Assembly: GCF_003097535.1 (NCBI RefSeq)
Contig: NZ_CP029187.1
Span: 3,488,757 to 3,552,756, forward strand
Source: Flavobacterium pallidum
GTDB taxonomy: Bacteria; Bacteroidota; Bacteroidia; Flavobacteriales; Flavobacteriaceae
Direction of reading: 5' to 3'
Length of the DNA stretch: 64,000 bases
Shown here: positions 33,754 through 58,904 of the stretch, one piece after another
Position numbering within the stretch: the first letter of the stretch is position 1
Layout of the letters: every line of letters starts with the position of its first letter
Notes under the pieces: generated by a model
Told to the model about the DNA's origin: nothing
The model's database searches: none
Seen by the model: only the letters and a program-made list of their open reading frames with translations
Position numbers and translations under genes: made by a program

Positions 33754-33785
33754 TTTGGTCGCTTGATTTTCATTTAATATGTTTG
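33754..33785 (+). promoter_or_regulatory. Promoter of the giant metalloprotease gene
   Basis: TTTG at 33754-33757, 20 bases, then TATGTTTG at 33778-33785. The in-frame ATG at 33779 lies inside the -7 box, which favours the start at 33806. Confidence 0.65.
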
Positions 33786-33805
33786 GCGTACCAAATCTGA
33801 TTAAA

Positions 33806-39800: not shown

Positions 39801-42133
39801 CTGCCGCAACCGCTTCAAATCTTGCTGCCGGAAATTATTCCGTAAGGATTACCGATGCGAATGGATGTTTCAAGGATCAGGCATTCACAATTACGCAGCC
39901 TGCCGCTGCGATTTCAAATACCGTTTCACAGACTAATGTGCTTTGTTTTGGTTCTGCTACGGGATCTGCTTCGGTGGTCGCTTCAGGGGGAACAGGCGCT
40001 TACACTTACCTTTGGTCGCCATCTGGTGGAACTGCCGCAACCGCTTCAAACCTTGCTGCCGGTAATTATTCTGTAAGGATTACCGATGCGAATGGTTGTT
40101 TCAAGAACCAGGCGTTTACGATTACACAACCAACTGCTGCCATTTCAAATACCGTTTCGCAGACTAATGTGCTTTGCTTTGGATCTGCTACAGGTTCTGC
40201 TACTGTTGTCGCTTCTGGTGGAACGGGCGCTTATACTTACCTTTGGTCACCATCGGGTGGAACTGCCGCAACGGCTTCAAATCTTGCTGCCGGAAATTAT
40301 TCCGTAAGGATTACCGATGCAAATGGTTGTTTCAAGGATCAGGCGTTTACCATTTCCCAGCCTGCCGTACTTAATAATACTTTCAGCCAGGCCAGCATCA
40401 GTTGCTATGGACAGACAGATGCGACTGCCACTGTGGTTCCTTCCGGCGGAACAGCGCCATATACTTATTCATGGTCACCCTCAGGAGGAAATGCTGCAAC
40501 GGCAACCAACCTTGCGCCTGGAAATTACACTTGTACCATTACGGATGCGCACGGATGTTCCAAAACACAAAACTTCACTATTGCCGCTCCAATAATCACT
40601 ACCTGGAACGGTACTTCGTGGAGCAATGGCTATCCTGTAGCTGGTGTAAAGGCAGTAATCAATGCCAATTATACTTCTGTTGGTGACCTGACAGCCTGTG
40701 CGCTCGAAATTAATGGCGCTATCGATGTGAATGTACTTTCAGGCCATGATTTTATTATTGCCGATAAGGTAACAGTGTCGCCATTATCTACTTTGACATT
40801 CAGGAATAATGCCAATCTGATCCAGATCAATGACGTTGTCAATACAGGCTCCATCATTTCAAAGAGGAATGCCCAAATGCGCCGTCAGGATTATGTGTAC
40901 TGGTCATCACCGGTTTATCCGCAGAATCTCCTGAGTTTTTCTCCGCTGACACTTACAAACAGGTTCTATATTTTGGATGAAACCACAAACTCCTTTGCTG
41001 CGGTAAATCCTGCAACAACCGATTTTGCAGTAGCCAAAGGATATATGATCCGGGCCCCAAATACTTTCCCTACTACTGTAACCACTTTTAACGGCCAGTT
41101 TTTAGGCGTGCCGAACAATGGTACAAAAACGATTCCGGTTACAGTTACGAACGGACAAGGGTATAACCTGATTGGAAATCCATATCCTTCAACGGTAGAT
41201 GCGGACCAGTTTTTGGCAGCCAATTCAGGAACCTTATATTTCTGGACGCATACTTCCCAGGATGCTGAAAATGGCGCGAATTATGCCACTTACAACACAA
41301 CCGGAGGTGTTGCTTCAATTGCCGGAGGTGCAACTCCGAATGGGACCATCCAGACCGGTCAGGGCTTTATCCTTGCGAAAAGCACTCCGGGAACGGCAAC
41401 TTTCACCAATGCCATGAGGACAGGTAACAATACGGGCCAATTTTTCAGGACCGGCCCGGTTGAAAAACACCGTATGTGGTTAAACCTAAACAGCTCAAGC
41501 GGTCCGGCAAACCAAATCCTTGTCGCTTATATGGATGGAGCCACCCAGGCTAAAGATGAGTCCATCGATGGGGCGTTGATTGAAAACGGAAACAGCATCT
41601 CCAGCATCATTAATAATGAAAGTTTTGTAATCCAGGGCCGTGCATTGCCTTTTGAGGATACTGATGTGGTTCCGTTGAATTTCCATGCTGAAACGCCGGG
41701 AACATACACACTCTCCATTGATCATGTTGATGGGATCTTCTCAGGAACTCAGGATATTTTCATAAAGGACAACCTGATCGGGTTGACCCATAATATCACA
41801 CAAAGTGCTTATTCGTTTGACACGAATGAGGGAACATTTGCAAACAGGTTCGAAATTGTTTATCAAAGCGCGCCATTAGGAACGGATAATCCGGTTTTCG
41901 ATGAGAACAATGTGGTGATTTACAAACACGACGGCATACTAAACGTAAAAACTTCTATGTTGCCGATGTCATCTGTAAAAATATTCGACATCAGAGGCAG
42001 GTTGATTTATGAAAAAACTGACATCAATTCAAATATGATCGAGCTGAATGATTTGAGAGCTGAAAAACAAGTACTTCTTGTACAGGTTATTTCAGAAAAC
42101 AATATTACAATCACTAAAAAAGTGGTTTATTAA
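33806..42133 (+). CDS. Giant reprolysin-like metalloprotease with SprB-type repeats, T9SS cargo
   Basis: The protein is 2775 residues from MKKTTLLAIF. A signal peptide (ending CFAQ, about 22) leads to a metzincin domain with the zinc motif HEMGHQFGAGH (residues 349-359) and a Met-turn-like STIMGY. Next come Ig- and Fn3-like modules, a proprotein-convertase P domain (about 869-996) and a cadherin-like segment (about 1000-1110). Fifteen 77-residue SprB-type repeats (about 1115-2262) follow, then a terminal module and T9SS sorting domain (about 2551-2775). It should be exported by T9SS and held at or released from the surface. Protease activity and adhesion by the repeats are inferred from families. 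It has its own promoter and terminator. Confidence 0.9.
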   Translation: MKKTTLLAIFASILFAPLCFAQSINNWQFKKESDLPKSTRSLKRDIVPARYQVFHLDINVFRETLHEAVVRDENNHLSHTVLLSFPFEDGRTEMFSIEKVDVLAPDLGAKYPEIQSYRGVSVDNPLNVIHFSMYNNEFRGLITGERTIYIDPYAKNEFENYIVYDRSDFVRSADEVMICNSIDEKMDKMDPVPSTHRNSTDAKYRTYDLAVACTSEYSAYYGNTISGVLAAVNTTITRVNSVYERDLAVHFQLVSGEDRLIYINNVNKDTPTADPDPYDNYDGSQMLSTNTSNITGLLGVNAYDVGHVFSTGGGGIASTAPCNATGKGQGVTGIVTPQFDPFDIDYVCHEMGHQFGAGHTQNNTCQYSATSGLEPGSASTIMGYAGICPPNVQNNSDAYFHAISIQQITTQIAGHTCDLETTIVNNEPVITAFGNYTIPISTPFVLTGNATDSAADLLTMTYCWEQMDATTTGLAQTPQSTNTTRPQFRSFFPTTSPSRTFPNLNAIINNTTPTWEVLPSVARTMKFRCTVRDNNPVGGQTNQDNTTITVGSAGPFSVTSPNAAATWYVGESKTVTWNVNSTNTATYSVNVNIKMSTDGGLTYPITLLAATPNDGTQAITVPNNIGTKNRIKVEAAANIFFDISNADFEIKSNKFDLTTTQATVPVCKPASAVYTLNYAPAPGFSEVTTFSATNLPSGAIVNFSPATMSASGTVTMTVSGMSSVAIGNYSINAVGTSASANITLPLTLKVFDSAIGSVALSSPVNGATNQATSVNLQWGALANASSYTVEIAANPNFSTLLETATVTTNSYQTTALTTGTINYWRVKPINACITGAYSPISVFQIASDYCHTYTNEYYDGNNVWETNSTNAVIAKMDVPDDVVISKVSFYMKATHASLADIKMQFSGPTGIFVEVYNRDCSGANFDITFDDAGVPLTCGNIDPLTTAGMEGIQQASQPLAKFIGSHSLGTWTLLATDRGANASGGTFNDLNVTICGKLQIVNNISLSNNFLNVTQGTTATLLSSNLTASQPSATNTDLIYTITELPVRGTLKKNGVNLAVGDTFTQANINSGLITYVHNGVNNSADSFKFSLTGVNLALLGAQTFNFNICNVTNTASQVNVLCFGASTGSATVVASGGTAPYTYLWSPSGGTGATASNLAAGTYTCTITDATTCTKSQVFTITQPTAAISNTVSQTNVLCFGSATGSATVVASGGTGAYTYLWSPSGGTGATASNLAAGNYSVRITDANGCFKDQAFTITQPTAPISNTVSQVNVLCFGSATGSATVVASGGTGTYTYLWSPSGGTAATASNLAAGNYSVRITDANGCFKDQAFTITQPTAAISNTVSQVNVLCFGSATGSATVVASGGTGAYTYLWSPSGGTAATASNLAAGNYSVRITDANGCFKDQAFTITQPAAAISNTVSQVNVLCFGSATGSATVVASGGTGAYTYLWSPSGGTAATASNLAAGNYSVRITDANGCFKDQAFTISQPAAAISNTVSQTNVLCFGSATGSASVVASGGTGAYTYLWSPFGGTAATASNLAAGNYSVRITDANGCFKDQAFTITQPTAAISNTVSQTNVLCFGSATGSATVVASGGTGAYTYLWSPSGGTAATASNLAAGNYSVRITDANGCFKDQAFTITQPTAPISNTVSQVNVLCFGSATGSATVVASGGTGAYTYLWSPSGGTAATASNLAAGNYSVRITDANGCFKDQAFTITQPAAAISNTVSQTNVLCFGSATGSASVVASGGTGAYTYLWSPSGGTAATASNLAAGNYSVRITDANGCFKDQAFTITQPAAAISNTVSQVNVLCFGSATGSASVVASGGTGAYTYLWSPSGGTAATASNLAAGNYSVRITDANGCFKDQAFTISQPAAAISNTVSQVNVLCFGSATGSATVVASGGTGAYTYLWSPSGGTAATASNLAAGNYSVRITDANGCFKDQAFTISQPAAAISNTVSQVNVLCFGSPTGSATVVASGGTGAYTYLWSPSGGTAATASNLAAGNYSVRITDANGCFKDQAFTITQPAAAISNTVSQTNVLCFGSATGSASVVASGGTGAYTYLWSPSGGTAATASNLAAGNYSVRITDANGCFKNQAFTITQPTAAISNTVSQTNVLCFGSATGSATVVASGGTGAYTYLWSPSGGTAATASNLAAGNYSVRITDANGCFKDQAFTISQPAVLNNTFSQASISCYGQTDATATVVPSGGTAPYTYSWSPSGGNAATATNLAPGNYTCTITDAHGCSKTQNFTIAAPIITTWNGTSWSNGYPVAGVKAVINANYTSVGDLTACALEINGAIDVNVLSGHDFIIADKVTVSPLSTLTFRNNANLIQINDVVNTGSIISKRNAQMRRQDYVYWSSPVYPQNLLSFSPLTLTNRFYILDETTNSFAAVNPATTDFAVAKGYMIRAPNTFPTTVTTFNGQFLGVPNNGTKTIPVTVTNGQGYNLIGNPYPSTVDADQFLAANSGTLYFWTHTSQDAENGANYATYNTTGGVASIAGGATPNGTIQTGQGFILAKSTPGTATFTNAMRTGNNTGQFFRTGPVEKHRMWLNLNSSSGPANQILVAYMDGATQAKDESIDGALIENGNSISSIINNESFVIQGRALPFEDTDVVPLNFHAETPGTYTLSIDHVDGIFSGTQDIFIKDNLIGLTHNITQSAYSFDTNEGTFANRFEIVYQSAPLGTDNPVFDENNVVIYKHDGILNVKTSMLPMSSVKIFDIRGRLIYEKTDINSNMIELNDLRAEKQVLLVQVISENNITITKKVVY
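37376..40378 (+). repeat. Thirteen near-identical 231-bp coding repeats (SprB-type)
   Basis: Units start at 37376 and every 231 bases up to 40148. Each codes for 77 residues beginning NTVSQ(T/V)NVLCFG, with a middle YLWSPSGGT and DANGCF near the end, so two Cys per unit. A diverged unit precedes (37145-37375) and another follows (from 40379), bounding the array as expected when the interior is homogenised by recombination. Several silent and coding variants (T/V, ATVV/ASVV, TITQPT/TITQPA/TISQPA, AACTAC/AATTAT) are shuffled among units. Confidence 0.95.
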
Positions 42134-42510: not shown

Positions 42511-45500
42511 ATGAAAAAAACTACCCTACTAATGGGCAGGCTAACCCTACTAGCCTGCTTACTCTTTACTGCCCTGACTTTCGGGCAATCACAAACTTTC
42601 AGTTCCACTGGAACATTTACTGTACCTGCAGGCGTAACCAGCATCCGTGTGGAAGCATGGGGCGGTGGTGGAGCCGGTGGTGGAGCGACAGGAGCTCCTT
42701 CAGCAGGCGGTGGTGGTGCCGGTGGCGCATATGTAAGAAACAATGCCATTACAGTGATACCAGGAACTACTTATACCGTAACGGTCGGAAACGGAGGTGT
42801 TGGAAGTACAGCTAACGGAGGCGCAGGAGGATCATCATGGTTTGGCACAACAGGCACAATATTGGCCGTGGGTGGAACCGGAGGAAACGCATCTGCCACA
42901 AACAACGTCACTGCAGCAGGCGCTACGGCTCCTACAACGGGCAATACCGGAGGAACCATCAACTTTTATGGTGGTAATGGCGGTACAGGTGTCACTGCCG
43001 GTGCTTCCGGCGGTGGTGGTGGTGCCAGTGCCGGTACAGGTTCAAACGGTTCGGCCGCGGTAGGTGTAACTGGTGGTCTCGCTGTTACCGGTGGTACTGC
43101 CGGAGCAAGTGGAAGTGCAACAAGCGCGGATGGTGCCAGCGCAACAGGATATGGTGCAGGTGGTGCAGGCGCAAGAACAGCTACTACAACGGACAGGGCA
43201 GGCGGAAGCGGTTCGGCGGGCCGGGTAATTATCACCTGGGTATGCCCAACTTACTCACTTACTTCTACCGTGTTACCAGCAAATAGCTGTCAGGCCGGAA
43301 CTGCAACCGTAACGTTGAACGGATCAGCTGCAAGCTTGCCTACCGGACCTTATACCGTAACATATAATCTCAGCGGCACTAATGCTGCAACAGGAAATAC
43401 CGCATCAATGACGGTATCAACCGCTGGAACTGGAACATTCACAACCAGCGCATTGGCCAATACCGGCTCGACCACTGTTACCATAACGAACCTGGCAAGC
43501 GGCGGCACATCACCTAATAACTGTAGCTCCGCTATAGGGACAAATAATACTGCAAGCGTTACTGTTATCACGGTTCCTGCCCAGCCTGGCACTATAACAG
43601 GTGATGCTGCTCCTTGCGTAGGCAGCTCACAATCTTACTCCGTAACAAATGTTGCCGGACTTACTTATAACTGGACGTTTCCTACAGGATGGACACAAAC
43701 CGCAGGAGGAACAACCAATTCCATTACAGTAACCGTAGGCAGTGGAACAGGAAATGTACAGGTTACGCCTTCAAACCTTTGCGGCCCGGGAACTGCGAGG
43801 ACTTTAGCTGTAACGCCAAATACAGTACCTTCACAACCTTCAACCATAACAGGAAGCGCAACCCCATGTAGCGGAGGAACATCAATAGCATACTCTGTAA
43901 CTAACGTTTCCGGCGTAACTTACAACTGGACATTGCCTTCAGGATGGTCACAGACAGGTGGCACCAACACCAACGCAATAACAGTCACTGCAGGAGGCGC
44001 ATCAGGAAACATCAGCGTTACGGCAACAAATGTCTGTGGAACGTCGACATCACGTACCTTGGCGGTAACTCCTACTGCCGGGCCGGCACAACCAAGCACC
44101 ATTACAGGGTCTACGAATGTATGCCAAACTTCAGTTCAAGGCTACAGTGTTACAAACGTTCCTGGTGTTACTTACACATGGACATTCCCTTCGGGTTGGA
44201 CACAAACTGCGGGAGGAACTTCAAATTCGATCAGCGTGAGTGCAGGCAGCACTTCCGGAAATATCACCGTCACCCCATCGATAGCATGCGGAAGCGGTAC
44301 GCCAAGGACATTGGCAGTTACTGCAACGGCCATGCCAACCATACTTACGACTACCCCGGGATCAAGGACAGGAGCAGGAGCAGTCAATCTTGGCGCAACC
44401 GCATCAACAGGAACGATATCATGGTTTGGGGCTGCAACGGGTGGTGTTGCTTTAGGGACAGGAACAACTTTTACGACCCCTGACATCGTTACATCCACGA
44501 CATTTTATATTGAAGTTTCGAACGGAAGCTGTACCACTTCGCCAAGAACGGGAATCTTAGCCACTGTAAACGCGCCTGAAATCGCGGTTTCCGGGAACGG
44601 CTATAACATTGCCGATGAAGATACGACACCCGAAACGACGGACTACACAGACTTTGGGACCGTAAACGTCATGATATCTTCTACCAAGACTTATACCATA
44701 CAGAATATTGGCACATTACCGCTTACTATTGGTACATTTACCATAGGCGGTGCCAACGCTTCTGAATTCGTATTACTTACTTCACCAGCAACTACTCTTG
44801 CTGCTGGTGCCACAACGACTTTCTCAGTAAAATTTACGCCAACAGCCGCCGGTGTTAGAAATGCCACTTTGTCCTTTGTGACAAATGACTCGGATGAGAA
44901 CCCGTTTAATTTCTATATAAGGGGAACCGGCGGAACTGGTGTAACACCTGAAATCAATATTCAGGGACTTGGTGTAACCATCATTGACGGAGCAGCACGC
45001 GGGCTTGTAGCTGATGGAACGCTTTTTACCACGACCACCATCGGCAGTTCTACGACCCGTACTTTTACAATCCAGAACGTAGGAACCGGCCCATTGACAT
45101 TATCAGGGGGGCCAAACTTCGCGGTAGTGACAGGAAGCGGATTTTTTACCGTACTGACACAACCTGCAGGTACCATAGCCGCGGGAAGCAGCACTACGTT
45201 CCAGGTAAGGTTCACGCCAACTTCTACCGGTAGTGCGGTAGCCATCGTAACAATCAACAACAGTGACGACGACGAAGGGATATTCGATTTCGTTATTGAA
45301 GGAACCGGCGTAATAGCCGGCCGCGATATCGGTATTGAGGGTAACGAAGTAGCGATCGCAGATGGTGCCACATCATCAAGCGTAGCGAACCAGACTGATT
45401 TCGGCATTACTGATCTGACTACTCCCATTTCCATTCCATTTAACGTGTATTCTTACGGGAATTCCACCTTAACTATCAGTTCAACAGCAATCACTGCAGG

Positions 45501-48500
45501 CAGTGGTTTCACGATCACATCATTAAGTGGAAACGTAAGTTCCGGGTCGCCAACTTCATTTGTGGTAACTTTCACGCCGACTGCAGTGGGTTCATTCTCA
45601 GCAACGGTAACCGTAAACAGCAATGCCAACAGCCCATCAACCAAAGCAGCCTTTACTTTTGTAGTCACTGCGGTAGTACAGAATCTTGCCGCGCTGACCA
45701 CTGCGCCTGGCGGGGTGACTTCGAATCTTGAATTCTGGCTGAAGGCCAACAGCGAAATCGGCGTGGTAAACGACAATGAGAATGTGAGCACCTGGAGTGA
45801 GCAGACTTTAGGAAGCACAAAAAACGCGATTGCCAAATTTTCCCGCGAGCCGAAATTTAAGAACAATGCTACAAGCAATGTCAATTTCAATCCTGTAATC
45901 ACCTTTAACGGCGCCAGTACGCTGTATGGCAACCAGGGATTCAACAACCAGGATATGTTCATTGTCCTGAAGCCTAAAAACAACATTACTTCAGCTACGA
46001 ATGCACAGGACATTTATTGCGGCGATGACCTTGCCGTAAACAAGAACAGCCAGGATGTCACAGGATTTGAGATGGGCAACACCTCTACGCGTTACGGTAC
46101 TTCAGCCGCCGACGTTGTCGCTTACAATCAGGGTGCCAATACCAGTTACGGAATTGCCGAGATAAATGCCTCAAAAATATACTCAGGCGTAAACATGTTC
46201 AACCCGAGGAGGAATACCGTATCGGGCAGGATGATGCTTTTATGCAATGGATCAACGCTTACTACAACAGAATCGCTTACAGCTTCTCCCGGTCCTTACC
46301 TGCCTTACAAAGACATTGTGAATTCAAGGTTTTGGTTGGGCCGAAGCGAATATTTCGATGCCAGTTATGAAGGCGACATCCTTGAAATCATCAATTACAG
46401 CAGCTTAAATTCGAATGCCAATAAAAGTAAAATTGAGTCTTACCTCGCTATAAAATACGGAATCACATTAGGCGTAAACGGGACCAGCGTGGATTATGTC
46501 GATTCTGACGGCACGACGATTTTCCCTTCAGCAAATGGTTTCAACTACAATATTGCCGGAATCGGAAGGGATGATAAATCCCAATTGAACCAAAAGCAAT
46601 CAAAGACAGAAAATACTGTAAACGATGTCACTATGGGCCTGACCACCATCGAGGCGCGGAATTCAGACAACACCAGTACTTTCGATGGAGACAAGAATTT
46701 CCTTATCTGGGGAAGCAATAACGGTACATTGGGGGCACAGGCACCGATTTTGGTAAACATGAGCTCCGGTATTGCAGGACTGACCACTCAGGTGGATTTC
46801 GTATCCATCGGAAGGACCTGGAAGGTTATCGAAAATGGTGGCGACGTAAAAACTGTCACAGTATCGGTACCTTCTACCCTATTGACTTCAACGATCACGC
46901 CTCCGGGAGACTTCCTGATGTTTATTTCGAGCAGCCCGATTTTCAGCCCTACGGCAGAATACAGGATCATGCGTGCCAACGGCTCAAAACTGGAAACCAC
47001 TTATGATTTTAACGGCACCACTTACATCACTTTTGGTTATGCACCTGAAAGGACTTTTGTAAGGTCGATTTCTTTTGACGGTGTAGATGATTATATGGAT
47101 GCCGGAAATGTATTAAACCTCAACAATACAAATTTCACAGTTTCGGCCTGGATTAAAAGAAATACTGCCAACAAGACTATATTATCAAAAAGAAACAGCG
47201 CATTCACTACCGGTTACGATTTATCGATCAACAGCGGCGGGTATGCTGAAATGAACTGGATGAACGGCTCGATGCAAACCATTACTTCGTCAGTGGTAAT
47301 ACCAACTGGAAAATGGCACAACATCGGTGTAACTTTTGACGGTACCAATGCACGCATGTATATTGACGGCGTTTTAGATACTACCCAGCCATTATTACCG
47401 GTGCTTACCAATACGCAATCGTTTGTTATCGCTGCCGCAGATGGCACTGCGACCACTTCTTTCTTCAACGGGACAATCGATGAGGTAAGGGTTTGGGGCA
47501 CTGCCCTGACCGCAGCCCAATTGAGGTATGTGATGAATCAGGAATTGCGCGAACACACCAATGGTACCGTCAACGGAAGCATCGTACCGCAAACAATCAC
47601 ATTAAATGAAGTGAAAAGCATCCCATGGTCAAGCGTAAGGGCGTATTACCCGATGTCGACTTATACATACACGAATGCCAAGGATATGTCCGACAATGAT
47701 TATACTGCAGCCATCAAAAACCTGATTACTGTAGATTACCAGACTGCGCCCCTGCCTTACGTTTCTGATGCCGATGGCGACTGGACCACCGATACCACCT
47801 GGAAAAACAGTGACGTACAGGATAACCCATACAGTTTTTCCATCGTTGACGGAACCACAAGGATTGGCTGGAATATCGTACAGACAAGCCATAACATCAC
47901 TACGAACACCAATAAAGTGGTTTTGGAACTGGACGTTTTAAGCAATAAGATTACTGCCGATAACGACATCAAAATCGAAGTATCCCATTACCTGAGCCTT
48001 GACGGAAAAATCGATCTTGTTGGCAAATCCCAATTGGTGCAATCTTCAGGAAGTGATTTGGATCCGACCAGCTCAGGCTCTATTGAAAGGGACCAACAGG
48101 GGCAAACGAATATTTACAACTACAATTACTGGTCATCTCCTGTAAGCGCGCCAAGTACCGTAGCAAATAATTTAGGCTACACGATCAGCGATGTATTTAA
48201 AGATGCAACAAATCCGGACAACCTTAAAAACATCAATTGGACTTATGACAGCGAGGATGGTGCGCCTACAAGCCCGATTACCATTTCAGCAAACTGGATA
48301 TACAAGTTCCAGAATGTCGGAAACGCCTATGCAAATTGGGGATACATCGGAGCAAACGGTACATTGCTGCCGGGTGAAGGGTTCACGATGAAAGGTTGCG
48401 GCGCTGCGGGTGCTACACAGAATTACACTTTTACAGGAAAACCGAACAACGGTGCGGTGACCTTGCCAATCGGTGCCGGATTCCTGAACCTTTGTGGAAA

Positions 48501-49599
48501 TCCTTATGCATCAGCACTGGATTCACAGCAATTCATCAACGACAACCTCGACTCTATAAATGGCACATTGTATTTCTGGGAGCATTATTCAACAAACGCC
48601 ACGCACGTTTATGCAGACTATCAGGGCGGTTATGCTGCTTTGACAAACGTGGGGGGAACTCCTCCGGTAGCGGCTCCGGGCATCAGCGGATTGGGCTCAA
48701 GCAGCCGAATCCCTAAAAGGTTCATCCCTGTAGGGCAAGGTTTCTTTGTCGTCGGAAACGGTACAGGGGGCACAATTAAATTCAATAACAACCAACGTTT
48801 GTTTGTTAAAGAAACCAGCGGATCATCGAATGTAATGTTCAGGAATGCCAATCAAATGAACGCTACAGCCACTAGTAACGGTGAAGGAAACCAGGACGAC
48901 AGTTATATGGTTACCGGCTTTTCAAAAATCCGCCTCGGCTATAATTCTTCAACAAATTACCACAGGCAGTTGTTGCTCGGGTTCATGAATGAATATGCTA
49001 CAAGTGCGATAGACCCAGGTTATGATGCCGTTATGTTTGACCAACTTCCTGATGACATGTACTTTCTGAACGGAGATACAAGGCTCATTATCCAGGGCGA
49101 AGGTTTTTTCAACGAAGCCAACATTTATCCTCTTGGCGTGAAGGCAGGTGTCGACGGAAACGTGCAATTTGTCATAGACGAGCTGATCAACTTTGACGAG
49201 AATCAGGATATCTACATTTATGATGATGAAGACCAGTCATACCATGACATAAAAGTAGGTCCATACGATGTGGTTTTGCCTCAGGGAACTTATGACAGCC
49301 GTTTTTCGCTAAGGTTCGTGAATTCAACTTTAGGGATTGAAAATCAACAACCTAATGGCCCGGCCATCAGTTTCACAAACAACAACAACAGCATCAACAT
49401 TCAAAACAATGAGCATCGTTTTACTGTAGACAGTGTATCCCTTTTTAATGTTTTAGGCCAAAGCCTTGAAACGTGGAAAACGGAACACAACAATGACGCA
49501 CTGCTGCAGATTCCGGTTAAACATTATGCGGCCGGAACATACATTGTAAAGATCAATACTTCTACCGGAAGTTTCAGCAAAAAAATCGTGATGAAATAA
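42511..49599 (+). CDS. Giant multidomain surface protein (Gly-rich, PKD-like, choice-of-anchor D, LamG), T9SS cargo
   Basis: The protein is 2362 residues. The signal peptide ends near LTFGQ (about 26). A Gly-rich domain (about 29-243) opening with FTVPAGVTSIRVEAWGGGG is followed by an Ig-like module, three PKD-like repeats of about 84 residues each starting QPxTITG (about 357-607), and three choice-of-anchor D modules (from about 690, 813 and 939, each with I..G....I.DG or similar). A DUF8202-like segment comes next (about 1060-1510), then a LamG jelly roll with SFDGVDDYMDAGN (about 1520-1680). The terminal module and T9SS sorting domain (about 2130-2362) end FSKKIVMK. All are binding folds; no catalytic motif is seen. 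An adhesin or matrix role is inferred. Confidence 0.88.
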   Translation: MKKTTLLMGRLTLLACLLFTALTFGQSQTFSSTGTFTVPAGVTSIRVEAWGGGGAGGGATGAPSAGGGGAGGAYVRNNAITVIPGTTYTVTVGNGGVGSTANGGAGGSSWFGTTGTILAVGGTGGNASATNNVTAAGATAPTTGNTGGTINFYGGNGGTGVTAGASGGGGGASAGTGSNGSAAVGVTGGLAVTGGTAGASGSATSADGASATGYGAGGAGARTATTTDRAGGSGSAGRVIITWVCPTYSLTSTVLPANSCQAGTATVTLNGSAASLPTGPYTVTYNLSGTNAATGNTASMTVSTAGTGTFTTSALANTGSTTVTITNLASGGTSPNNCSSAIGTNNTASVTVITVPAQPGTITGDAAPCVGSSQSYSVTNVAGLTYNWTFPTGWTQTAGGTTNSITVTVGSGTGNVQVTPSNLCGPGTARTLAVTPNTVPSQPSTITGSATPCSGGTSIAYSVTNVSGVTYNWTLPSGWSQTGGTNTNAITVTAGGASGNISVTATNVCGTSTSRTLAVTPTAGPAQPSTITGSTNVCQTSVQGYSVTNVPGVTYTWTFPSGWTQTAGGTSNSISVSAGSTSGNITVTPSIACGSGTPRTLAVTATAMPTILTTTPGSRTGAGAVNLGATASTGTISWFGAATGGVALGTGTTFTTPDIVTSTTFYIEVSNGSCTTSPRTGILATVNAPEIAVSGNGYNIADEDTTPETTDYTDFGTVNVMISSTKTYTIQNIGTLPLTIGTFTIGGANASEFVLLTSPATTLAAGATTTFSVKFTPTAAGVRNATLSFVTNDSDENPFNFYIRGTGGTGVTPEINIQGLGVTIIDGAARGLVADGTLFTTTTIGSSTTRTFTIQNVGTGPLTLSGGPNFAVVTGSGFFTVLTQPAGTIAAGSSTTFQVRFTPTSTGSAVAIVTINNSDDDEGIFDFVIEGTGVIAGRDIGIEGNEVAIADGATSSSVANQTDFGITDLTTPISIPFNVYSYGNSTLTISSTAITAGSGFTITSLSGNVSSGSPTSFVVTFTPTAVGSFSATVTVNSNANSPSTKAAFTFVVTAVVQNLAALTTAPGGVTSNLEFWLKANSEIGVVNDNENVSTWSEQTLGSTKNAIAKFSREPKFKNNATSNVNFNPVITFNGASTLYGNQGFNNQDMFIVLKPKNNITSATNAQDIYCGDDLAVNKNSQDVTGFEMGNTSTRYGTSAADVVAYNQGANTSYGIAEINASKIYSGVNMFNPRRNTVSGRMMLLCNGSTLTTTESLTASPGPYLPYKDIVNSRFWLGRSEYFDASYEGDILEIINYSSLNSNANKSKIESYLAIKYGITLGVNGTSVDYVDSDGTTIFPSANGFNYNIAGIGRDDKSQLNQKQSKTENTVNDVTMGLTTIEARNSDNTSTFDGDKNFLIWGSNNGTLGAQAPILVNMSSGIAGLTTQVDFVSIGRTWKVIENGGDVKTVTVSVPSTLLTSTITPPGDFLMFISSSPIFSPTAEYRIMRANGSKLETTYDFNGTTYITFGYAPERTFVRSISFDGVDDYMDAGNVLNLNNTNFTVSAWIKRNTANKTILSKRNSAFTTGYDLSINSGGYAEMNWMNGSMQTITSSVVIPTGKWHNIGVTFDGTNARMYIDGVLDTTQPLLPVLTNTQSFVIAAADGTATTSFFNGTIDEVRVWGTALTAAQLRYVMNQELREHTNGTVNGSIVPQTITLNEVKSIPWSSVRAYYPMSTYTYTNAKDMSDNDYTAAIKNLITVDYQTAPLPYVSDADGDWTTDTTWKNSDVQDNPYSFSIVDGTTRIGWNIVQTSHNITTNTNKVVLELDVLSNKITADNDIKIEVSHYLSLDGKIDLVGKSQLVQSSGSDLDPTSSGSIERDQQGQTNIYNYNYWSSPVSAPSTVANNLGYTISDVFKDATNPDNLKNINWTYDSEDGAPTSPITISANWIYKFQNVGNAYANWGYIGANGTLLPGEGFTMKGCGAAGATQNYTFTGKPNNGAVTLPIGAGFLNLCGNPYASALDSQQFINDNLDSINGTLYFWEHYSTNATHVYADYQGGYAALTNVGGTPPVAAPGISGLGSSSRIPKRFIPVGQGFFVVGNGTGGTIKFNNNQRLFVKETSGSSNVMFRNANQMNATATSNGEGNQDDSYMVTGFSKIRLGYNSSTNYHRQLLLGFMNEYATSAIDPGYDAVMFDQLPDDMYFLNGDTRLIIQGEGFFNEANIYPLGVKAGVDGNVQFVIDELINFDENQDIYIYDDEDQSYHDIKVGPYDVVLPQGTYDSRFSLRFVNSTLGIENQQPNGPAISFTNNNNSINIQNNEHRFTVDSVSLFNVLGQSLETWKTEHNNDALLQIPVKHYAAGTYIVKINTSTGSFSKKIVMK

Positions 49600-49920: not shown

Positions 49921-52900
49921 ATGAAGAAATCATACAATTTGAAACAGCTGTTTTTGCTTATCTGCGTATTTTGGTTTGCCCAAAATTCATTTGCACAAAG
50001 CACAGTAACCTACAGCTACACTACATCCGGCGCAGTACAAACTTTTACTGTCCCTTCCGGAGTTACAAGCATCACAATTGAAGCCTGGGGCGGCGGAGGC
50101 CGTGGAGGATCGAGAGTAACGAGTACAGGCCCATGTGGTGGAGGCGGTAGCGGTGGTTATTCGAAACATACGATGACTGTAACCCCGGGGACTAATTACA
50201 ACGTCGTGGTCGGTGGCGGAAGCACTACTACGGCATCCGGACAAAACACAACTTTCAACACCACTACTGTGGTTGCAAATGGCGGTGGCAGTGTCGCTGA
50301 TAACTCAAACGGAAGCGGCGCGGGTGCTGCTGCCGGAACAGGAAACGTATTCAACCGTGCGGGAGCCGCCGGTGCGAGCGTGAGCGGCGGATTAACCAAT
50401 GGTGGCGGTGGAGCTGCATCAGGAAGTGCCAATGGTGTTGCCGTAGCAGGTACAACCAATAGCGCTACCGGAGCGACTGCACCAACGGATGGCGGAAATG
50501 GTGGTAGCGGAAGATCATCATCTACCGGTGTCGGAAATCCAGGAACGGTGCCCGGCGGCGGCGGCGGCGGTGCTTACAGGACTACCAGCGGAAGTTCTGC
50601 AGGTGGAAGTGGCGCCAACGGAAAAGTGATTATCACCTATGGAATTGCGGAAATTGGCGTATTTAGCGTTTATGGAACAAACGTTGCTGACAATGATGCT
50701 ACACCCTCGGCTTCTGAAGGTACACTTTTCGGCTCGGTAAATACCGGAAGCTATCTTACAAGCGATTTCATCATTGTAAATACAGGTAACGTTGCACTCA
50801 CATTAAGCACTCCTACTTATACAGGGGATTTCAGCACATTCGGCACGGCCCCAACTACAGTGGCAGCGGGAAGTACTGCTACCCTTACCGTAAAATTCCA
50901 GCCCACTGGTACGGGAACACGTAATGGGACGATTTCCTTTAACACAAACGATGCTGACGAAGCCGTTTATAACTTCAGTCTTTCGGGAACGGGTACAGCG
51001 CCAACGATTGCAGTGACCGGAGGCGGTCCTACCCCAGCATCTATACCGAATAATGACAACTCCCCTACTGTTGCCAAAGGCTCTGATTTCGGCACCCAGG
51101 TAACTGCAGGATATGTTACGAAAACATTTACAATCACTAACAGTGGTTCAGGAGCGCTGACCATTACGGGGGTTACGCTTACAGGATCGCATGCATCGGA
51201 TTTTTCTATCATTACCGCTCCGGCAACCACAGTGGCCCCAGGCGGAACGACAACATTTTCTGTGCGATTCGATCCGTCATCCGGTGGGATACGAAAAGCG
51301 ACGGTAAATATAGCAAATGATGCCGGCTTATTTAAATTTGATATCACCGGAACCAACAATACATCAACCGCAGCGGATATTAGAGTAGAAAGCTCAGCAG
51401 GTACTGACATCCCAATGTATGCCGCTGCAAGCAGTACTTACAATACAGATTTCGGCTCAGTCAATACACTCGACACACCGGTTACGAAAACGTTCACGAT
51501 CAGGAATGAATCTGCCACCTTATTGCCGTTACCACAATCACTTACAGGAATAAGTGTAGCGGTATCAGGAACCGGATTTACCGTTTCGGCATCAACAATC
51601 GTGGCAGGAACAATATTACCAAGCGGATCAGCGACCTTTACGATACAATTTAATCCTAACGTTACAGGTGTAGTAAATGGAACGGTTACAGTAACAAACG
51701 CAGATTCGAATGAAGGGTCTTATATATTTTATGTAACCGGGACAGGGACCAATCCTGAAATTGCAATGACAGGAGGATATCCTGCTACAAATTTAGCCTA
51801 CAATGACATCACCCCTACTACTGCTGAAGGTACTGATTTTGGAGCACAATTCAATAATGGTGGTTATATTACCAGGGACTTTACGGTTACAAATTCTGGG
51901 AACGGCCCATTGAAATTCAGTGCTGTAACCGTTGCGAACACCAGTGCTTCCCAAGCAGGAAATACCGATTATACGATATCGGGAATTACAGCCGGTACAA
52001 TAGTCGCCGCAGGTGAATCTTTAAACTTCACCATTACTTATACTCCTGCCGCAACTTCTGCCGGAACAAGGACTGCTACCATTACCCTTACCAATAACGA
52101 TACCGATGAATCCAATTTCCAGATCAGGGTAACGGGTACTATTGGTGCAAATACAAGAGAAATCAATGTAAAAGGTGGTTCACCTTTAACAGACATCAAT
52201 ATGTATGACGCTGCAACGACGGCACAGGGAACCGATTTTGGCGGTATGTATGTTACCAGCGGGAGCATTTCAAAAAGTTTTACGATATACAATACAGGAA
52301 ATGCGGTGCTTTCGATAACATCGACTACAATTACTGGAACCAATGCAGCTGATTTTACGATTACGACAACACCATCTTCGAGTGTTGCGGCTACTACAGG
52401 AACCACCACTCTGACTATTAACTTTAATCCAAGCAGTGCAGGTACTAGGAGCGCGATAGTGACGATCAACAACAACGATCCTAATGAAGCTGCGTATGTA
52501 TTCTTCATTCAAGGTACCGGAAATACTTACGCCGATTCTGATGGTGACAACGTGACTGATGATGCAGATGTTGATGATGATAACGACGGAATTCTGGATA
52601 CTATTGAACAGGCTGCCTGCTCAACATTGTCAACTTCGCAAACTTCATCCAAAGTTTTCCTGAATGAGACTTTCGGTACAGGAACAACTGCGACGGACAT
52701 TGACGATAACGATCCGAATGCATCCATTGGCCCGGACTATGAGTACAATTTCAATTTGTATGACGGGCAATATGTCGTGCACAATACAGCCCAGATTACG
52801 TCTTGGGCGGATGGCCTTTGGTATAAAGGTCCCGATCATACTTCGGGTGACACAAACGGTAAAATGGCTTTGATCAATGCTGAGTATACGGCGGGACAGA

Positions 52901-55900
52901 TGTATTCCAACATCATATCAGGAGTAACCCCTAACGTAGAAGTAACATTCAGTTTTTATGCCATAAATTTGGACCGAACTGATGCTGCCGATATTGATAA
53001 CCGTATCAGACCAAATATCAGGATTGAAATAAGGAAGATTGCTGACAATTCACTTATTACTTCGCTTTCCACAGGAAATATTGCGCCAAGTCCGTCCGGC
53101 ATCGCAACGGAGTCTGACTGGATCAACTACTCCCTTACATTTACTACTTCGGAAACGGATTTCCGCGTAACTTTTATTAACAATGCCCTTGGGGGATTAG
53201 GAAACGATATTGCTTTTGATGACATTACGGTATCACAGCGTTATTGCGATATGGACCATGACGATGAAGCTGATACATTTGATTTGGACGATGATAACGA
53301 TGGAATTCCTGATGCAGTGGAAGCGGGCTTTAAAGCGTATACAAATAACAAGAGTAAAATCGATAATACCGACAATACAAAGTGGGTTGATGCCAACAAA
53401 AATGGATTGAATGACAACATTGATCCGGATTTTATCAGCAATTATTATACTGCGTATATTCCAGATACAGATGGTGACGGAATCTACGATTTCATGGACT
53501 ATGACAGCGACAATGACACGAAATTTGACATTGATGAAGCACAGGCCGATACTTTTTATTTAAGCAACACTGGTGGCTCTTATAATGGTGATGGAGATAT
53601 CGATGGTGACGGTAAGGGTGATAATGCGGATACTGACCTTGACGGAATCCTGGATTTGAACGACGACTCTACAGCCTACGGAACTACCGCAAAGGCATTT
53701 CCTACTGATACAGATGGAGATGGCACCCCGGACTATCTCGATCTAACCTCTAACGGTTCAACAAAAGATATAGCCGGTACACTTTATGCAAGCCTGGATG
53801 CTAATAATGATGGAAAGGTAGACGGAACCGCTGATGTTGATAAGGATGGTATTATGGATCTTTTTGACAGCTATAATGTTCCTTCAAGCGGAAGCGTTAT
53901 ATCTGTTGGATCTCCAAGAAATATCATCAATAAGAACCTTCTTATCGATTTTGATGGCCGCAACGATTATGCAGAAGGCGCTAATCTTTTAACAGGACTT
54001 TCGAAAGCCACCATTATGGGATGGGTAAAATTAGATACTAATTATCCTTCAACTTCCACAATCGTTTTAGGACAGGACAATTTCTATATCACCATTAGTG
54101 GCAGCGCTACAAAAAGGGTGACCGCCATAGCAGGTTCATACAGCGCAACATGGACCACTTCACTCGATGTAAGCAGGTGGTACCATGTAGCAGCAGTGTA
54201 TGACAGCAGTACAGGATTAAAATTATTTGTAAACGGAAGCCTGAAGAATACTGTTTCCGTGTCCGGAAGCCTTGGCGCAACAAGCACCAAGTTCACTATC
54301 GCTAAAAAATCAAGTGCGAGTTCTAACTATTTCAGGGGTTATATAGATGAAGTCCGTGTGTTTAACACCTCTTTGACCGATGACCAGTTACAAAAAATGG
54401 TTTACCAGAAAATCGACCAAAATGGAACCGCTATCCGTGGAGCAGTCATTCCTAAAGACATTGAATCTTCAACATGGGCAAATCTTAAAGCCTATTACAG
54501 GATGGACGACTATAAAGGCAATGTGACAGACGATTACACTCTTGCTGGGACAGACAACGGTACTAGTTCCGCTTACTGTAAAATCTACAACGTAAAATAT
54601 ATTAAGACTGAGAATACGCCTTTGCCTTTTAAAACCAAACAGGCTGGTATATTGGACAGTACTGCACTTACCGATACTTCAAATTTTATTTATGGTCCGG
54701 ATGTTACAGCAAACGATTATTCTGTAATTCAGGTACAGCACGATGTTACCTTGGGCAATAATTTAACCGGTGTTGGCCTTATAGTAGATTCAGGCAAAAA
54801 AATCACTGTAAATAATAATAATAAGATAGAAAATTCCTGGTATCTTGATCTTCAAGGCACCATCGATTTGGTAGACAAGTCACAATTGGTCCAAAGCACA
54901 AACAGTACACTGGCAACCACTACTACCGGTAAGATTGAACGCGACCAGCAGGGAACAAAAATCAGGTTTAATTATAATTATTGGTGTTCCCCTGTAAGTA
55001 CGATCTCAAGCAGCACCGTAAATAATGGTTATACCGTCGACGGTGTAATGAAAGATGGCTCTTCGGGTTCTCCGGTTAACATCGCATGGATTGATGACCA
55101 GGATGCTCCAGGGACTAGTGCCCCGATCACTTTAAGCCGTTCATGGATCTACAAATACCAGAACCTTACAAATGCATACGCAAGCTGGTCATTCGTGGGC
55201 GAATCAGGAAGCCTGTCTGCAGGTCAGGGATACACTCTTAAAGGGTCAAGTACAAGTTCTACTACGCAGAATTATGTTTTTGTAGGCAAGCCTAACAACG
55301 GTACGATTACATCACCTATTTCAGCTAGCAATTTAAATTTATCTGGAAATCCTTATCCATCAGCACTCAGTGCAATGGAATTTATTAAAGACAACCTGCC
55401 TGCTTCCAGCCCTTCAGCTAATCCAGGGACCAGTGGCGCTTTGACAGGAGCACTTTATTTCTGGGAACATTCCTCAACCAATAATTCCCATGTATATGCG
55501 AGCTACATTGGCGGTTACGGAGTATATAGTTTAGTTGGAGGTGTAGCGCCTGCCAGCGCCGCATCTGGAACAAGTGGCCAGGTGGGTACAAGCAATGTCG
55601 CACCAGGCGATTATATTCCTGTCGGACAAGGTTTCTTTGTACAAGGAAGCACTACGGGTGGTAATATTACTTTTAAAAACAGCCAAAGGGCTTTCGTAAA
55701 AGAAAATGCCAGCAACAGTACGGCGTTGATGCGCAATGCAAATGCAACACAATCTGTTCAGGAGGCTAATGACAATACTCCTTTAGCATCGGATTTAGAA
55801 AATTTCACTAAAATAAGGATTGGTTTCAACAACAATGTAAACAGTCACCGCCAGGTATTGATAGGATTTATGAATCAGAATGCTACAGATGCTTTTGATT

Positions 55901-56484
55901 TAGGTTATGATGCCTTAAATTTCGATACCAATCCAAGTGACATGTACTTCAAAACACCGGACAGCAACCTGCTGGTACAGGGTGTTGGAAGTTTTTCAGA
56001 ATCAAGCATATATCCACTGGGCGTGACTGCAGATACAGCCAGTCCTGTTTCATTCACTTTGGACGGCGTTGAAAACCTTGATGAAAATCAGGAAATTTAT
56101 ATCTATGATGCCCTTGACCAATCATACCATAATATCAGGGAAGGGATTTTCGAAACTACACTGGATGAAGGAACTTTCGAGCAACGTTTTTCATTGAGGT
56201 TCTTCAATCCTCTTGGAGTCACAAATCCTGTAGCTGAAGATCAGATCAGCGTGTTTTTCACAAGTAAAGATCAAATGCTGACTATAAAAAATACCTTGAC
56301 TTCAACAACAGTTGAATCAGCAATGCTGTTTAATGTACTTGGCCAGCAGATTGCTATATGGGATGTTAAAAATGAAAATCAGGAAAATATCCAGATTCCC
56401 GTGAAGAATATCAGCTCCGGAACTTATATTGTAAAAGTCAAAACAACTACTGGTTCTGTTTCGAAAAAGATTATCATCAGATAA
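49921..56484 (+). CDS. Giant multidomain surface protein (Gly-rich, choice-of-anchor D, TSP3-like, LamG), T9SS cargo
   Basis: The protein is 2187 residues. The signal peptide ends NSFAQ (about 26). A Gly-rich domain close to that of the preceding gene (FTVPSGVTSITIEAWGGGG) is followed by five choice-of-anchor D modules of about 120 residues (about 245-870). A DSDGDNVTDDADVDDDNDG calcium-binding TSP3-like stretch (about 875-900) comes next, then an inserted jelly-roll-like domain with FLNETFGTG (about 915-1100). More TSP3-like Asp-rich repeats follow (to about 1320), then a LamG domain (about 1340-1490) and the terminal module with T9SS sorting domain ending SKKIIIR. It is probably a calcium-stiffened surface stalk or adhesin; no enzyme motif is seen. 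Confidence 0.88.
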   Translation: MKKSYNLKQLFLLICVFWFAQNSFAQSTVTYSYTTSGAVQTFTVPSGVTSITIEAWGGGGRGGSRVTSTGPCGGGGSGGYSKHTMTVTPGTNYNVVVGGGSTTTASGQNTTFNTTTVVANGGGSVADNSNGSGAGAAAGTGNVFNRAGAAGASVSGGLTNGGGGAASGSANGVAVAGTTNSATGATAPTDGGNGGSGRSSSTGVGNPGTVPGGGGGGAYRTTSGSSAGGSGANGKVIITYGIAEIGVFSVYGTNVADNDATPSASEGTLFGSVNTGSYLTSDFIIVNTGNVALTLSTPTYTGDFSTFGTAPTTVAAGSTATLTVKFQPTGTGTRNGTISFNTNDADEAVYNFSLSGTGTAPTIAVTGGGPTPASIPNNDNSPTVAKGSDFGTQVTAGYVTKTFTITNSGSGALTITGVTLTGSHASDFSIITAPATTVAPGGTTTFSVRFDPSSGGIRKATVNIANDAGLFKFDITGTNNTSTAADIRVESSAGTDIPMYAAASSTYNTDFGSVNTLDTPVTKTFTIRNESATLLPLPQSLTGISVAVSGTGFTVSASTIVAGTILPSGSATFTIQFNPNVTGVVNGTVTVTNADSNEGSYIFYVTGTGTNPEIAMTGGYPATNLAYNDITPTTAEGTDFGAQFNNGGYITRDFTVTNSGNGPLKFSAVTVANTSASQAGNTDYTISGITAGTIVAAGESLNFTITYTPAATSAGTRTATITLTNNDTDESNFQIRVTGTIGANTREINVKGGSPLTDINMYDAATTAQGTDFGGMYVTSGSISKSFTIYNTGNAVLSITSTTITGTNAADFTITTTPSSSVAATTGTTTLTINFNPSSAGTRSAIVTINNNDPNEAAYVFFIQGTGNTYADSDGDNVTDDADVDDDNDGILDTIEQAACSTLSTSQTSSKVFLNETFGTGTTATDIDDNDPNASIGPDYEYNFNLYDGQYVVHNTAQITSWADGLWYKGPDHTSGDTNGKMALINAEYTAGQMYSNIISGVTPNVEVTFSFYAINLDRTDAADIDNRIRPNIRIEIRKIADNSLITSLSTGNIAPSPSGIATESDWINYSLTFTTSETDFRVTFINNALGGLGNDIAFDDITVSQRYCDMDHDDEADTFDLDDDNDGIPDAVEAGFKAYTNNKSKIDNTDNTKWVDANKNGLNDNIDPDFISNYYTAYIPDTDGDGIYDFMDYDSDNDTKFDIDEAQADTFYLSNTGGSYNGDGDIDGDGKGDNADTDLDGILDLNDDSTAYGTTAKAFPTDTDGDGTPDYLDLTSNGSTKDIAGTLYASLDANNDGKVDGTADVDKDGIMDLFDSYNVPSSGSVISVGSPRNIINKNLLIDFDGRNDYAEGANLLTGLSKATIMGWVKLDTNYPSTSTIVLGQDNFYITISGSATKRVTAIAGSYSATWTTSLDVSRWYHVAAVYDSSTGLKLFVNGSLKNTVSVSGSLGATSTKFTIAKKSSASSNYFRGYIDEVRVFNTSLTDDQLQKMVYQKIDQNGTAIRGAVIPKDIESSTWANLKAYYRMDDYKGNVTDDYTLAGTDNGTSSAYCKIYNVKYIKTENTPLPFKTKQAGILDSTALTDTSNFIYGPDVTANDYSVIQVQHDVTLGNNLTGVGLIVDSGKKITVNNNNKIENSWYLDLQGTIDLVDKSQLVQSTNSTLATTTTGKIERDQQGTKIRFNYNYWCSPVSTISSSTVNNGYTVDGVMKDGSSGSPVNIAWIDDQDAPGTSAPITLSRSWIYKYQNLTNAYASWSFVGESGSLSAGQGYTLKGSSTSSTTQNYVFVGKPNNGTITSPISASNLNLSGNPYPSALSAMEFIKDNLPASSPSANPGTSGALTGALYFWEHSSTNNSHVYASYIGGYGVYSLVGGVAPASAASGTSGQVGTSNVAPGDYIPVGQGFFVQGSTTGGNITFKNSQRAFVKENASNSTALMRNANATQSVQEANDNTPLASDLENFTKIRIGFNNNVNSHRQVLIGFMNQNATDAFDLGYDALNFDTNPSDMYFKTPDSNLLVQGVGSFSESSIYPLGVTADTASPVSFTLDGVENLDENQEIYIYDALDQSYHNIREGIFETTLDEGTFEQRFSLRFFNPLGVTNPVAEDQISVFFTSKDQMLTIKNTLTSTTVESAMLFNVLGQQIAIWDVKNENQENIQIPVKNISSGTYIVKVKTTTGSVSKKIIIR

Positions 56485-56536: not shown

Positions 56537-56694
56537 ATTATTAATAAAGGCGCATAAAGCCAATAAAATCAATACTTTACCTACGTAAAAATACTTGGTT
56601 TGCGCCATACAACGTTAATATCTGCAACTCAACGAAAAGAATTTTTAACATTATTTTTTAGGTATATTTTTACCAAAAATAAAACCTACTAATC

Positions 56695-57477
56695 ATGAAA
56701 AATCTTTACACACGCATCAGCATCCTATTCCTCTTCGGAATGCTGATGGTGGCCCCAAAATCCTTTTCACAGGATGATGACTTCACAGAAGAAACCTTTA
56801 CGAAGCTTCGTTTAGGATTCCATTCTCACAACAATTTTTACAGGCAAATCCTTCTCGGTTTCGAAAATGACAACGCTACCGAAGGAATTGATCCGGGGTT
56901 TGACGCTGTGAACGTTTTTAACCTGCCGAATGACTTTTACTTTTTATGCGGCACTACAGAATTGTTTATACAAGGTGTTGGTTATTACAATACGAACAAT
57001 ATTTATCCTTTAGGCGTAAGGTCTAATTCTGTAGGCACCATCACTATCAATATCGACGCGGCTGAATATTGGGACCCAACGCAGGAAGTATTCATTTATG
57101 ATGCAGACAATAACACCTATTTTAATATCAAAAACGGGCCGTTTACTGCTAATGTTGGTGTTGGGACCTTCAATAACAGGTTTTCACTGCGTTTTTCTAC
57201 ACAATCCACTTTAGGAACAGGAACAATTACTGATGGAAAAATGTCCGTAAATTACATTACTTCTGAAAAAGTATTATCGTTGATAAACACAACTTCCAAT
57301 ACCGCTACAACCGTAAGCCTTTACAGCATTACCGGTCAAAAAGCAGCCTATTGGAACGTGTCTGAAATAGACCAGACAAATTTAAACCTTCCTGTATCCG
57401 GCCTTAGCGCAGGTGTTTATATTGTAAATGTCGAAACGCCGGGTGGCACCATCACGAAGAAAGTTTTACTGAAATAA
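56695..57477 (+). CDS. Mini T9SS protein: signal peptide plus stand-alone terminal module
   Basis: The 260-residue protein has a signal peptide ending KSFSQ (about 26). The mature part is only the terminal module found at the C-ends of the giants. It starts TKLRLGFHSHNNFYRQILLGF, and continues GIDPGFDAVN, FIQGVGYY, NIYPLGV, QEVFIYDAD and GTFNNRFSLRF. It closes with a type A-like sorting domain (VSLYSITGQ, GVYIVNVETPGG, KKVLLK). It carries no adhesin or enzyme domain. Possible roles are a competitor, cap, co-factor or filler for the T9SS attachment step, or the remnant of a deleted giant. I cannot tell these apart from sequence. It has its own terminator. Confidence 0.85.
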   Translation: MKNLYTRISILFLFGMLMVAPKSFSQDDDFTEETFTKLRLGFHSHNNFYRQILLGFENDNATEGIDPGFDAVNVFNLPNDFYFLCGTTELFIQGVGYYNTNNIYPLGVRSNSVGTITINIDAAEYWDPTQEVFIYDADNNTYFNIKNGPFTANVGVGTFNNRFSLRFSTQSTLGTGTITDGKMSVNYITSEKVLSLINTTSNTATTVSLYSITGQKAAYWNVSEIDQTNLNLPVSGLSAGVYIVNVETPGGTITKKVLLK

Positions 57478-57499
57478 AAATCAATCTACATCTATCAAA

Positions 57500-57527
57500 A
57501 AAGCTCCTCTACCTAAGGAGCTTTTTT
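57500..57527. terminator. Bidirectional terminator between mini T9SS gene and hisS
   Basis: AGCTCCT (57502-57508) pairs with AGGAGCT (57516-57522), with A-run before and T-run after, serving both convergent genes. Confidence 0.8.
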
Positions 57528-57530
57528 ATT

Positions 57531-58904
57531 TTATTCCTTAAGAATTTGTTCTAGTTTCCCGAAATCAACCAATTCCTGGTCACCCGTTGCCAGGTTCTTT
57601 AATGTAAATTTTTCATCAATCATCTCCTGATCCCCGACAATGACCACAAAAGGTATTTCCCTTTTATCAGCATGCTGGAATTGTTTTCCCACTTTTACAT
57701 TGTCAGGATACAACTCTGCCTTGACACCCGATTTACGCAATTTCATAATCGCTTTCATGGCATACAGCGCCTCATTTTCCCCATAATTTACAAACAGGAC
57801 TTTTGAAGTCGCATTAACCGTAGCGGGAAATAATCCCAGCTCCTCCAAAACAAGGTAAATCCTGTCCAGTCCGAAGGAAATTCCCACGCCGCTCATATTT
57901 TTCAACCCGAAAATACCTGTTAGGTCATCATATCTTCCGCCACCGCCTACAGATCCCATCAAAACGGCTTTCGGAGGCGCCACTTCAAAGATAGCTCCCG
58001 TGTAGTAGTTCAGGCCGCGTGCCAAAGTTACATCAAGGTCGAGTATGGATTTATCCAGCCCCAATGCCGCAATTTTGTCGCATATAAAGTGGAGTTCTTG
58101 CACCCCTTTCAAACCTTCATCAGAGCCTGACAACATTTGCTCCAGTTTTTCCAATTTCTTCTGAATCGAACCGGAAAACTGGAATAATGGCTGTATTTTT
58201 TTTATCGCTTCCGCAGAAATGCCTTTGTCGGTCATTTCCTTCCTGACCCCATCTTCGCCTATCTTATCCAATTTATCAAGCGCCACGGTAAAATCTATGA
58301 GTTTGTCTTTGGCACCGATAACTTCCGCAATCCCGGATAAGATCTTGCGATTGTTAATTTTGATAGTCACACCGTCTAATCCAAGTTCACTGAAAACAGC
58401 ATCATACAATTGTACCAACTCGACTTCCTGCCATAAACTTTTAGACCCCACAACATCGGCATCACATTGGAAAAACTCACGGAAACGTCCTTTTTGTGGC
58501 CTGTCTGCACGCCAAACCGGCTGGATTTGGTAACGCTTAAACGGAAATTCTATATCATTCTGATGTTGTACAACGTAGCGTGCAAAAGGCACGGTCAGAT
58601 CGTAACGTAATGCTTTTTCGGAAATTTTGGATGTCAGTTGCTTTGGGTTTTTAGAAAGCAATTCTTCCTCTGAAACTTTTTCCAGAAAGTCCCCGGAATT
58701 CAAAATCTTAAAAATCAGCCTATCCCCTTCTTCACCATATTTCCCCATCAACGTCTCCGAATTCTCAAACGATGGCGTTTCTATAGGCTGGTACCCGAAC
58801 CGTTCAAAATTGCCTTTGATAATCCCAAAAATATATTGCCTTTTCGCCACCTCTCCTGGTGAAAAATCTCTTGTCCCTTTTGGGATTCCCGGTTTTTGTG
58901 CCAT
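57531..58904 (-). CDS. hisS: Histidyl-tRNA synthetase
   Basis: The 457-residue protein is a class II synthetase. PKGTRDFSP lies near the N terminus, motif 2 reads [21 protein letters not shown], the His-binding motif [15 protein letters not shown] follows, and motif 3 is [12 protein letters not shown]. It charges tRNA-His in the cytoplasm. The length is normal. It stands alone, convergent with the T9SS genes. Confidence 0.95.

Follow-up and report, generated by a model that had tools for sequence, protein, structure and literature searches.

What is the role of a protein that consists of little more than an export signal and the tail of its giant neighbours? The question is raised by a locus of Flavobacterium pallidum within a 64,000-nucleotide stretch of its genome (contig NZ_CP029187.1, positions 3,488,757 to 3,552,756; hereafter the window), in which three giant genes, here called A, B and C, are followed by the short gene D (56695–57477). 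A preliminary description made from the sequence of the window had presented D as a type IX secretion system (T9SS) protein without a passenger, and suggested that it was either a functional mini-ligand of the sorting or attachment apparatus or the product of a deletion. Using sequence comparison and structure prediction, we describe the architecture, orthology, genomic place and constraint of D, together with the key parts of its export route in the genome. We consider it reasonably probable that D is a maintained type A T9SS substrate that brings a free-standing beta-sandwich, of the type preceding the C-terminal sorting domain (CTD) of RemA, to the cell surface or the medium as an accessory beside the giants. 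The parts of this reading differ in confidence: from its sequence D is very probably a maintained secreted protein and the beta-sandwich is likely to be its functional product, while joint action with the neighbouring giants is proposed only tentatively.

That D is just the terminal module behind a putative signal peptide was borne out by its open reading frame and by BLASTP, in which residues 33–260 matched the end of giant C (39.6% identity over 230 residues, E 4e-54) and residues 26–260 the end of giant B (39.4% over 236, E 3e-51), similarities that lie far above chance. The statement that all giants end in this module holds for B and C, whereas giant A qualifies at the superfamily level only, as it was matched by residues 37–175 alone (27% over 141, E 3e-7). 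Three of the proposed landmark motifs are valid in B, C and D, namely KxRxG[FY]...RQxLxGF (with G[FY] required since giant B reads GY), IYPLGV and GT[FY]xxRFSLRF; by contrast, giant C departs from PGxDAV (LGYDAL) and IQGxGxxN (VQGVGSFS), and D itself from EIYIYDxxDQ (EVFIYDADNN). A structure model of mature D showed two domains joined via the poorly predicted residues 172–180, and residues 30–172 modelled alone with AlphaFold2 (AF2) gave an all-beta sandwich with a mean predicted local distance difference test score (pLDDT) of 94.6 and a predicted template modelling score (pTM) of 0.89. As modelled, the adhesin “terminal module” is two domains, a beta-sandwich passenger and a sorting domain. 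The latter exceeded the curated cut-offs of PF18962 (33.8 bits, cut-off 27) and TIGR04183 (39.8, cut-off 23) and was the sole Pfam family above its cut-off in the 260 residues. Lys255 and Lys256 were unchanged in all 23 rows of an alignment of proteins found by protein search, and Lys256 aligned to Lys1110 of RemZ, the conserved CTD lysine that contacts PorV (PMC10994853).

Because the ~131-residue beta-sandwich precedes the sorting domain as it does in RemA and RemZ, D does have a passenger, contrary to the preliminary description, and this passenger is its most constrained part. In Flavobacterium johnsoniae, the gliding adhesin RemA (1436 aa) and its homologue RemZ (1114 aa) showed C-terminal homology to D residues 36–260 and 46–258 (E 7e-17 and 8e-18), sharing the beta-sandwich ahead of a type A CTD and the conserved lysine. 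They differ from D in carrying long passengers, that of RemA with a lectin domain (PMC12618676). The solved RemA and RemZ chains resolve 75–76 CTD residues only, and among the structure matches listed for the beta-sandwich of D, no solved chain came close. Two other assignments were rejected. As a RemA-type gliding adhesin, D lacks the long passenger and lectin domain; as a T9SS-dependent surface endonuclease (NF052644), it scored 17.3 bits against a cut-off of 260, over a stretch (116–258) that includes the CTD.

Orthologues of D, whose absence had been named as a mark of a remnant, were found. The protein search returned 23 proteins, D included, of which P0001–P0019, judged by eye, show the complete architecture with its signal peptide (the start of P0006 being placed too early). 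P0002–P0019 are short full-length relatives with 38–85% identity over 89–100% of D, while P0020–P0022 come from the ends of giants and P0023, on a 1.2-kb contig, is a short protein in its own right. Phylogenetic analysis was performed on 78 rows (22 short, 54 other module rows and 2 outgroup), leaving aside P0020–P0022 and the near copies P0002, P0005, P0006, P0011 and P0012; among the 54 “giant” rows, L076, two from L079, L133 and L134 are short or truncated frames. In this tree 18 of the short proteins grouped as a single clade (SH-aLRT 94) that excludes the 54 other module rows. Short rows L054 and L066 nested inside the giants (starred 96), as did P0023, and L132 lay outside on a long branch. 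Forcing all 22 short rows together was rejected (p-AU 0.002). The L054-type family is itself conserved, with 4 of the 7 proteins found having 259–264 aa at 63–99% identity, and on the tree it is a second short family that arose separately at D's locus. Cys85 and His45 each occur in 15 of the 18 D-clade proteins and Asn245, in the CTD, in 17, compared to none of the 54 other rows, although the rows were chosen by likeness to D, which favours finding such marks.

Gene order told the same story. The order giant, D, hisS was found in all five D-clade loci with DNA, which are the window, Flavobacterium magnum (G073), BFFFF1, MAG007 and a pond bin (L056). L054 likewise shows giant, short gene and hisS, and the L066 contig stops ahead of hisS. 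Proteins made of a signal peptide and the module therefore do recur beside giants, as the preliminary description had asked. Relatives of both B and C stand beside D in 4 of the 5 loci (L056 has 3699 masked bases), and thus D is not simply a cut-down C. The suggested choice between a functional and a deletion product is no real choice: tree and gene order fit a gene that would have come from a giant long ago and been kept ever since.

Selection on D was read from the NG86 and YN00 estimators and whole-gene agreement; maximum-likelihood (ML) estimates from Biopython were unstable, with ML omega (the ratio of nonsynonymous, dN, to synonymous, dS, substitution rates) between the window and F. magnum reaching 0.65 for the D module (26–190) and 0.68 for hisS even though NG86 dN was low for both. 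For D in this nearest pair, dN was 0.09 and dS was undefined (saturated) by NG86 and 1.5–1.9 by YN00 and ML. Whole-gene omega was 0.064 by YN00 and 0.045 by ML, far from the value near 1 that had been named as the mark of a remnant. The unsaturated L054/L066 pair gave dN 0.04, dS 0.43–0.54 and omega 0.07–0.10. Against BFFFF1, YN00 yielded 0.11 for D and 0.44 for the CTD alone, and NG86 yielded 0.18 for D in the MAG007 comparison and, in that with F. magnum, 0.33 for the signal peptide. The beta-sandwich had changed less than the CTD in F. magnum (9/131 vs 19/80 residues, p 0.0007; p values here and below are per single test), BFFFF1 (15/131 vs 35/80, p 2e-7) and MAG007 (44/131 vs 46/80, p 0.0009). 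In the giants, the module was significantly more conserved than the CTD in none of three comparisons for C and in one of three for B (MAG007 p 0.004; BFFFF1 p 0.0504), and the D module changed less than that of giant C in all three (p 4e-5, 0.04 and 0.04). Taken from these sequences, D is under purifying selection, strongest in the beta-sandwich, in line with the earlier view of a maintained gene.

The control region offered a further link between C and D. Terminator-like stems flank D, at 56508–56536 before it and at 57497–57527 after it, although two such stems compare with a shuffle mean of 1.0 (standard deviation 1.0). Sigma-70-type promoter matches were at chance level (2 vs 3.8) in a scan that does not cover Bacteroidota promoters. 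The sequence CAACGAAAAGAATTTTTAACA, 45–65 bp ahead of the D start, recurs unaltered in F. magnum and with a single change in BFFFF1; MAG007 retains it in part. Two A[AT]CG steps make up a further pattern, which was drawn by eye from the very sequences in which it is counted here. It starts 84–103 bp ahead of 5/5 D-clade genes and 96–98 bp ahead of 4/4 C genes, and is absent from the 200 bp upstream of the window's giants A and B as well as of both L054-type short genes. Such a pattern would be compatible with common control of C and D or with their common origin.

Key parts of the export route for D are present in the genome. Profile searches placed SprA, PorV and PorU of the same genome above cut-off, as well as 105 of 106 TIGR04183 places. 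We propose that D would be exported by Sec and carried by SprA and PorV, and that PorU-type removal of the CTD within linker 167–180 would leave a protein of ~145 residues. The freed domain may then work in trans as a short accessory of the surface or matrix, beside giants ending in the same domain, by pairing with their modules or through a common binding partner.

Several observations weigh against D as an accessory of the giants. First, the link between them consists of place, ancestry and the upstream pattern only. Second, D is rare and patchy: D-clade short frames were found in at least 3 of 299 genomes of the genus, its own included (G000, G073 and G284), compared to 163 of 299 with a module match at 1e-20. 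In this survey, which listed match places down to about E 3e-36 and scored at most 8 candidates per genome, G145 and G221 had other short frames and G023 a short frame cut by the contig end. Third, in 52 distinct hisS neighbourhoods, drawn from fetched loci all chosen for carrying the module, the neighbour of hisS was a short gene in 6 and a larger module gene in 46 (many cut by the stretch end; 29 of the 46 within 200 bp of hisS), so the giants do not need D. Fourth, dS is saturated in the nearest D pair and some of the estimators disagree. Lastly, the D module did not show significantly fewer changes than the module of giant B (p 0.21, 0.06 and 0.80).

If the giants are related to D by ancestry only, D may be an independent small ligand-binding protein whose beta-sandwich binds a sugar or protein of its own. 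We regard this as unlikely. A different alternative comes from PorA of Porphyromonas gingivalis, by analogy the nearest precedent for D's build. As described in PMC7712824, PorA has 246 aa with a signal of 27, one immunoglobulin-like beta-domain (crystallised core Q28–R171), a CTD and no other domain, matching D in build and size (with the signal peptide of D identified by eye). D could by this analogy be a surface-held sensor, its CTD perhaps kept, that reports secretion or a ligand to a two-component system controlling T9SS or adhesin genes. However, PorA is placed upstream of PorXY-SigP while nothing links D to signalling, PorA was not among the sequence matches of D at E up to 1 or among the structure matches listed, and D occurs in few genomes and so is not a core regulator; a sensor role seems quite improbable. 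That D is a spacer or deletion remnant without selected function is barely credible: its domain could derive from a giant via loss of the middle and its family is patchy, but it has orthologues across large distance, intact frames, low dN and its strongest constraint in the domain itself, and dN is far below dS in the second short family as well.

Returning to D as an accessory, we note a rather unlikely extension, in which the pre-CTD beta-sandwich is a “foot” engaging a cell-surface partner and D a free foot acting in trans to tune giant display or movement. PMC12618676 reports that a subpopulation of RemA-HaloTag bearing its own CTD is mobile, whereas SprB-HaloTag with the RemA CTD is static. 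Since the RemA CTD left SprB static while RemA is partly mobile, mobility may come from something that precedes the CTD, and we would guess the D-type module as one candidate among all upstream parts of RemA. Against this, the authors' own conclusion is that localization and dynamics are dictated by the CTD. More broadly, one clade exports the domain alone, as its signals imply, with the domain as its most constrained part, and a second family arrived at this build on its own, which suggests that the domain ahead of a RemA-type sorting signal is not a mere spacer. As a natural construct of 260 aa, D makes binding by this domain directly testable, unlike the giants of ~2200–2800 aa. Features of the locus are collected in Table 1.

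Table 1. Gene D, its parts and its neighbours in the window.
Feature	Coordinates	Strand	Description
Gene D	56695..57477	+	ATG to TAA, 260 aa; type A T9SS substrate: signal peptide, beta-sandwich, sorting domain
D signal peptide	56695..56769	+	residues 1–25; putative Sec, cleavage expected before Q26; sequence read by eye
D short acidic linker	56770..56799	+	residues 26–35; F. magnum orthologue differs at 0/10 residues
D RemA/RemZ-type beta-sandwich (passenger)	56800..57192	+	residues 36–166; AF2 model; match to RemA and RemZ
D linker	57193..57234	+	residues 167–180; pLDDT <50 at 172–180; sorting-domain removal site likely here
D type A sorting domain (CTD)	57235..57474	+	residues 181–260; PF18962, TIGR04183; Lys256 matches place of RemZ Lys1110
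Terminator-like stem-loop after D	57497..57527	+	stem scan
Upstream element	56611..56638 before D; 49824–49851 before giant C	+	two A[AT]CG steps 20 bp apart; pattern drawn by eye from these same sequences
Giant A	33779..42133	+	open reading frame as listed, the real start (ATG) being possibly 33806; reprolysin-like peptidase, SprB repeats, distant RemA-type module, CTD
Giant B	42511..49599	+	glycine-rich, PKD-like, choice-of-anchor D, LamG; terminal module ~48892–49596
Giant C	49921..56484	+	glycine-rich, choice-of-anchor D, LamG; terminal module ~55798–56481
hisS	57531..58904	-	TIGR00442 397 bits, cut-off 287; tail to tail with D; marker of conserved locus

Further observations concern the module and its carriers. 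Giant A (33779–42133) combines a reprolysin-like metallopeptidase and 15 SprB-repeat stretches with the RemA-like module, and its CTD passed the cut-off for type A as well as that for type C (ChiA). In Flavobacterium paronense, two near-identical module ends (L079:9995-10705 and 11396-12403) are inverted, one being a 237-aa open frame, hinting at how such ends duplicate, if not at an assembly fault. The genome of F. pallidum encodes another short protein of signal peptide and module, L008 (G000:C1:3134248-3134760; 287 aa), more distant from D and nearest the module of giant A. It has relatives in other Flavobacterium; the search found 26 proteins, many of them fragments, with P0024 (L008 itself), P0025, P0026 and P0032 complete with a signal peptide as judged by eye.

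The genome also contains CTD-bearing open frames smaller than D, of 132, 160, 162 and 166 residues, which by eye consist of a signal peptide and CTD with ~15 to 70 residues between; three very short type A substrates with open frames of 160–166 aa lie at G000:C1:3044900-3045900, 2074000-2075000 and 1448900-1450000. A protein of 107 aa (G000:C1:528989-529309; L144:4490-4810) consists of a signal peptide and, ~15 residues further on, a type A CTD (63.7 bits). Both it and D are very short type A substrates, but with only ~15 residues before its CTD it is this protein, rather than D, that truly lacks a passenger. It had matches in 38 of 60 genomes searched, its own included, and the match was a short frame (105–171 aa) in 35 of 36 other genomes of the genus, while in G021 the CTD part only matched, inside a 240-aa frame. 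In 4/4 genomes examined, the 107-aa gene follows a large gene and a roughly 390-aa gene, of which the one copy scanned matched no family, and has a further gene nearby. In F. pallidum the large gene carries a CarboxypepD_reg domain and a TonB-receptor plug, and the nearby gene matches LuxE.
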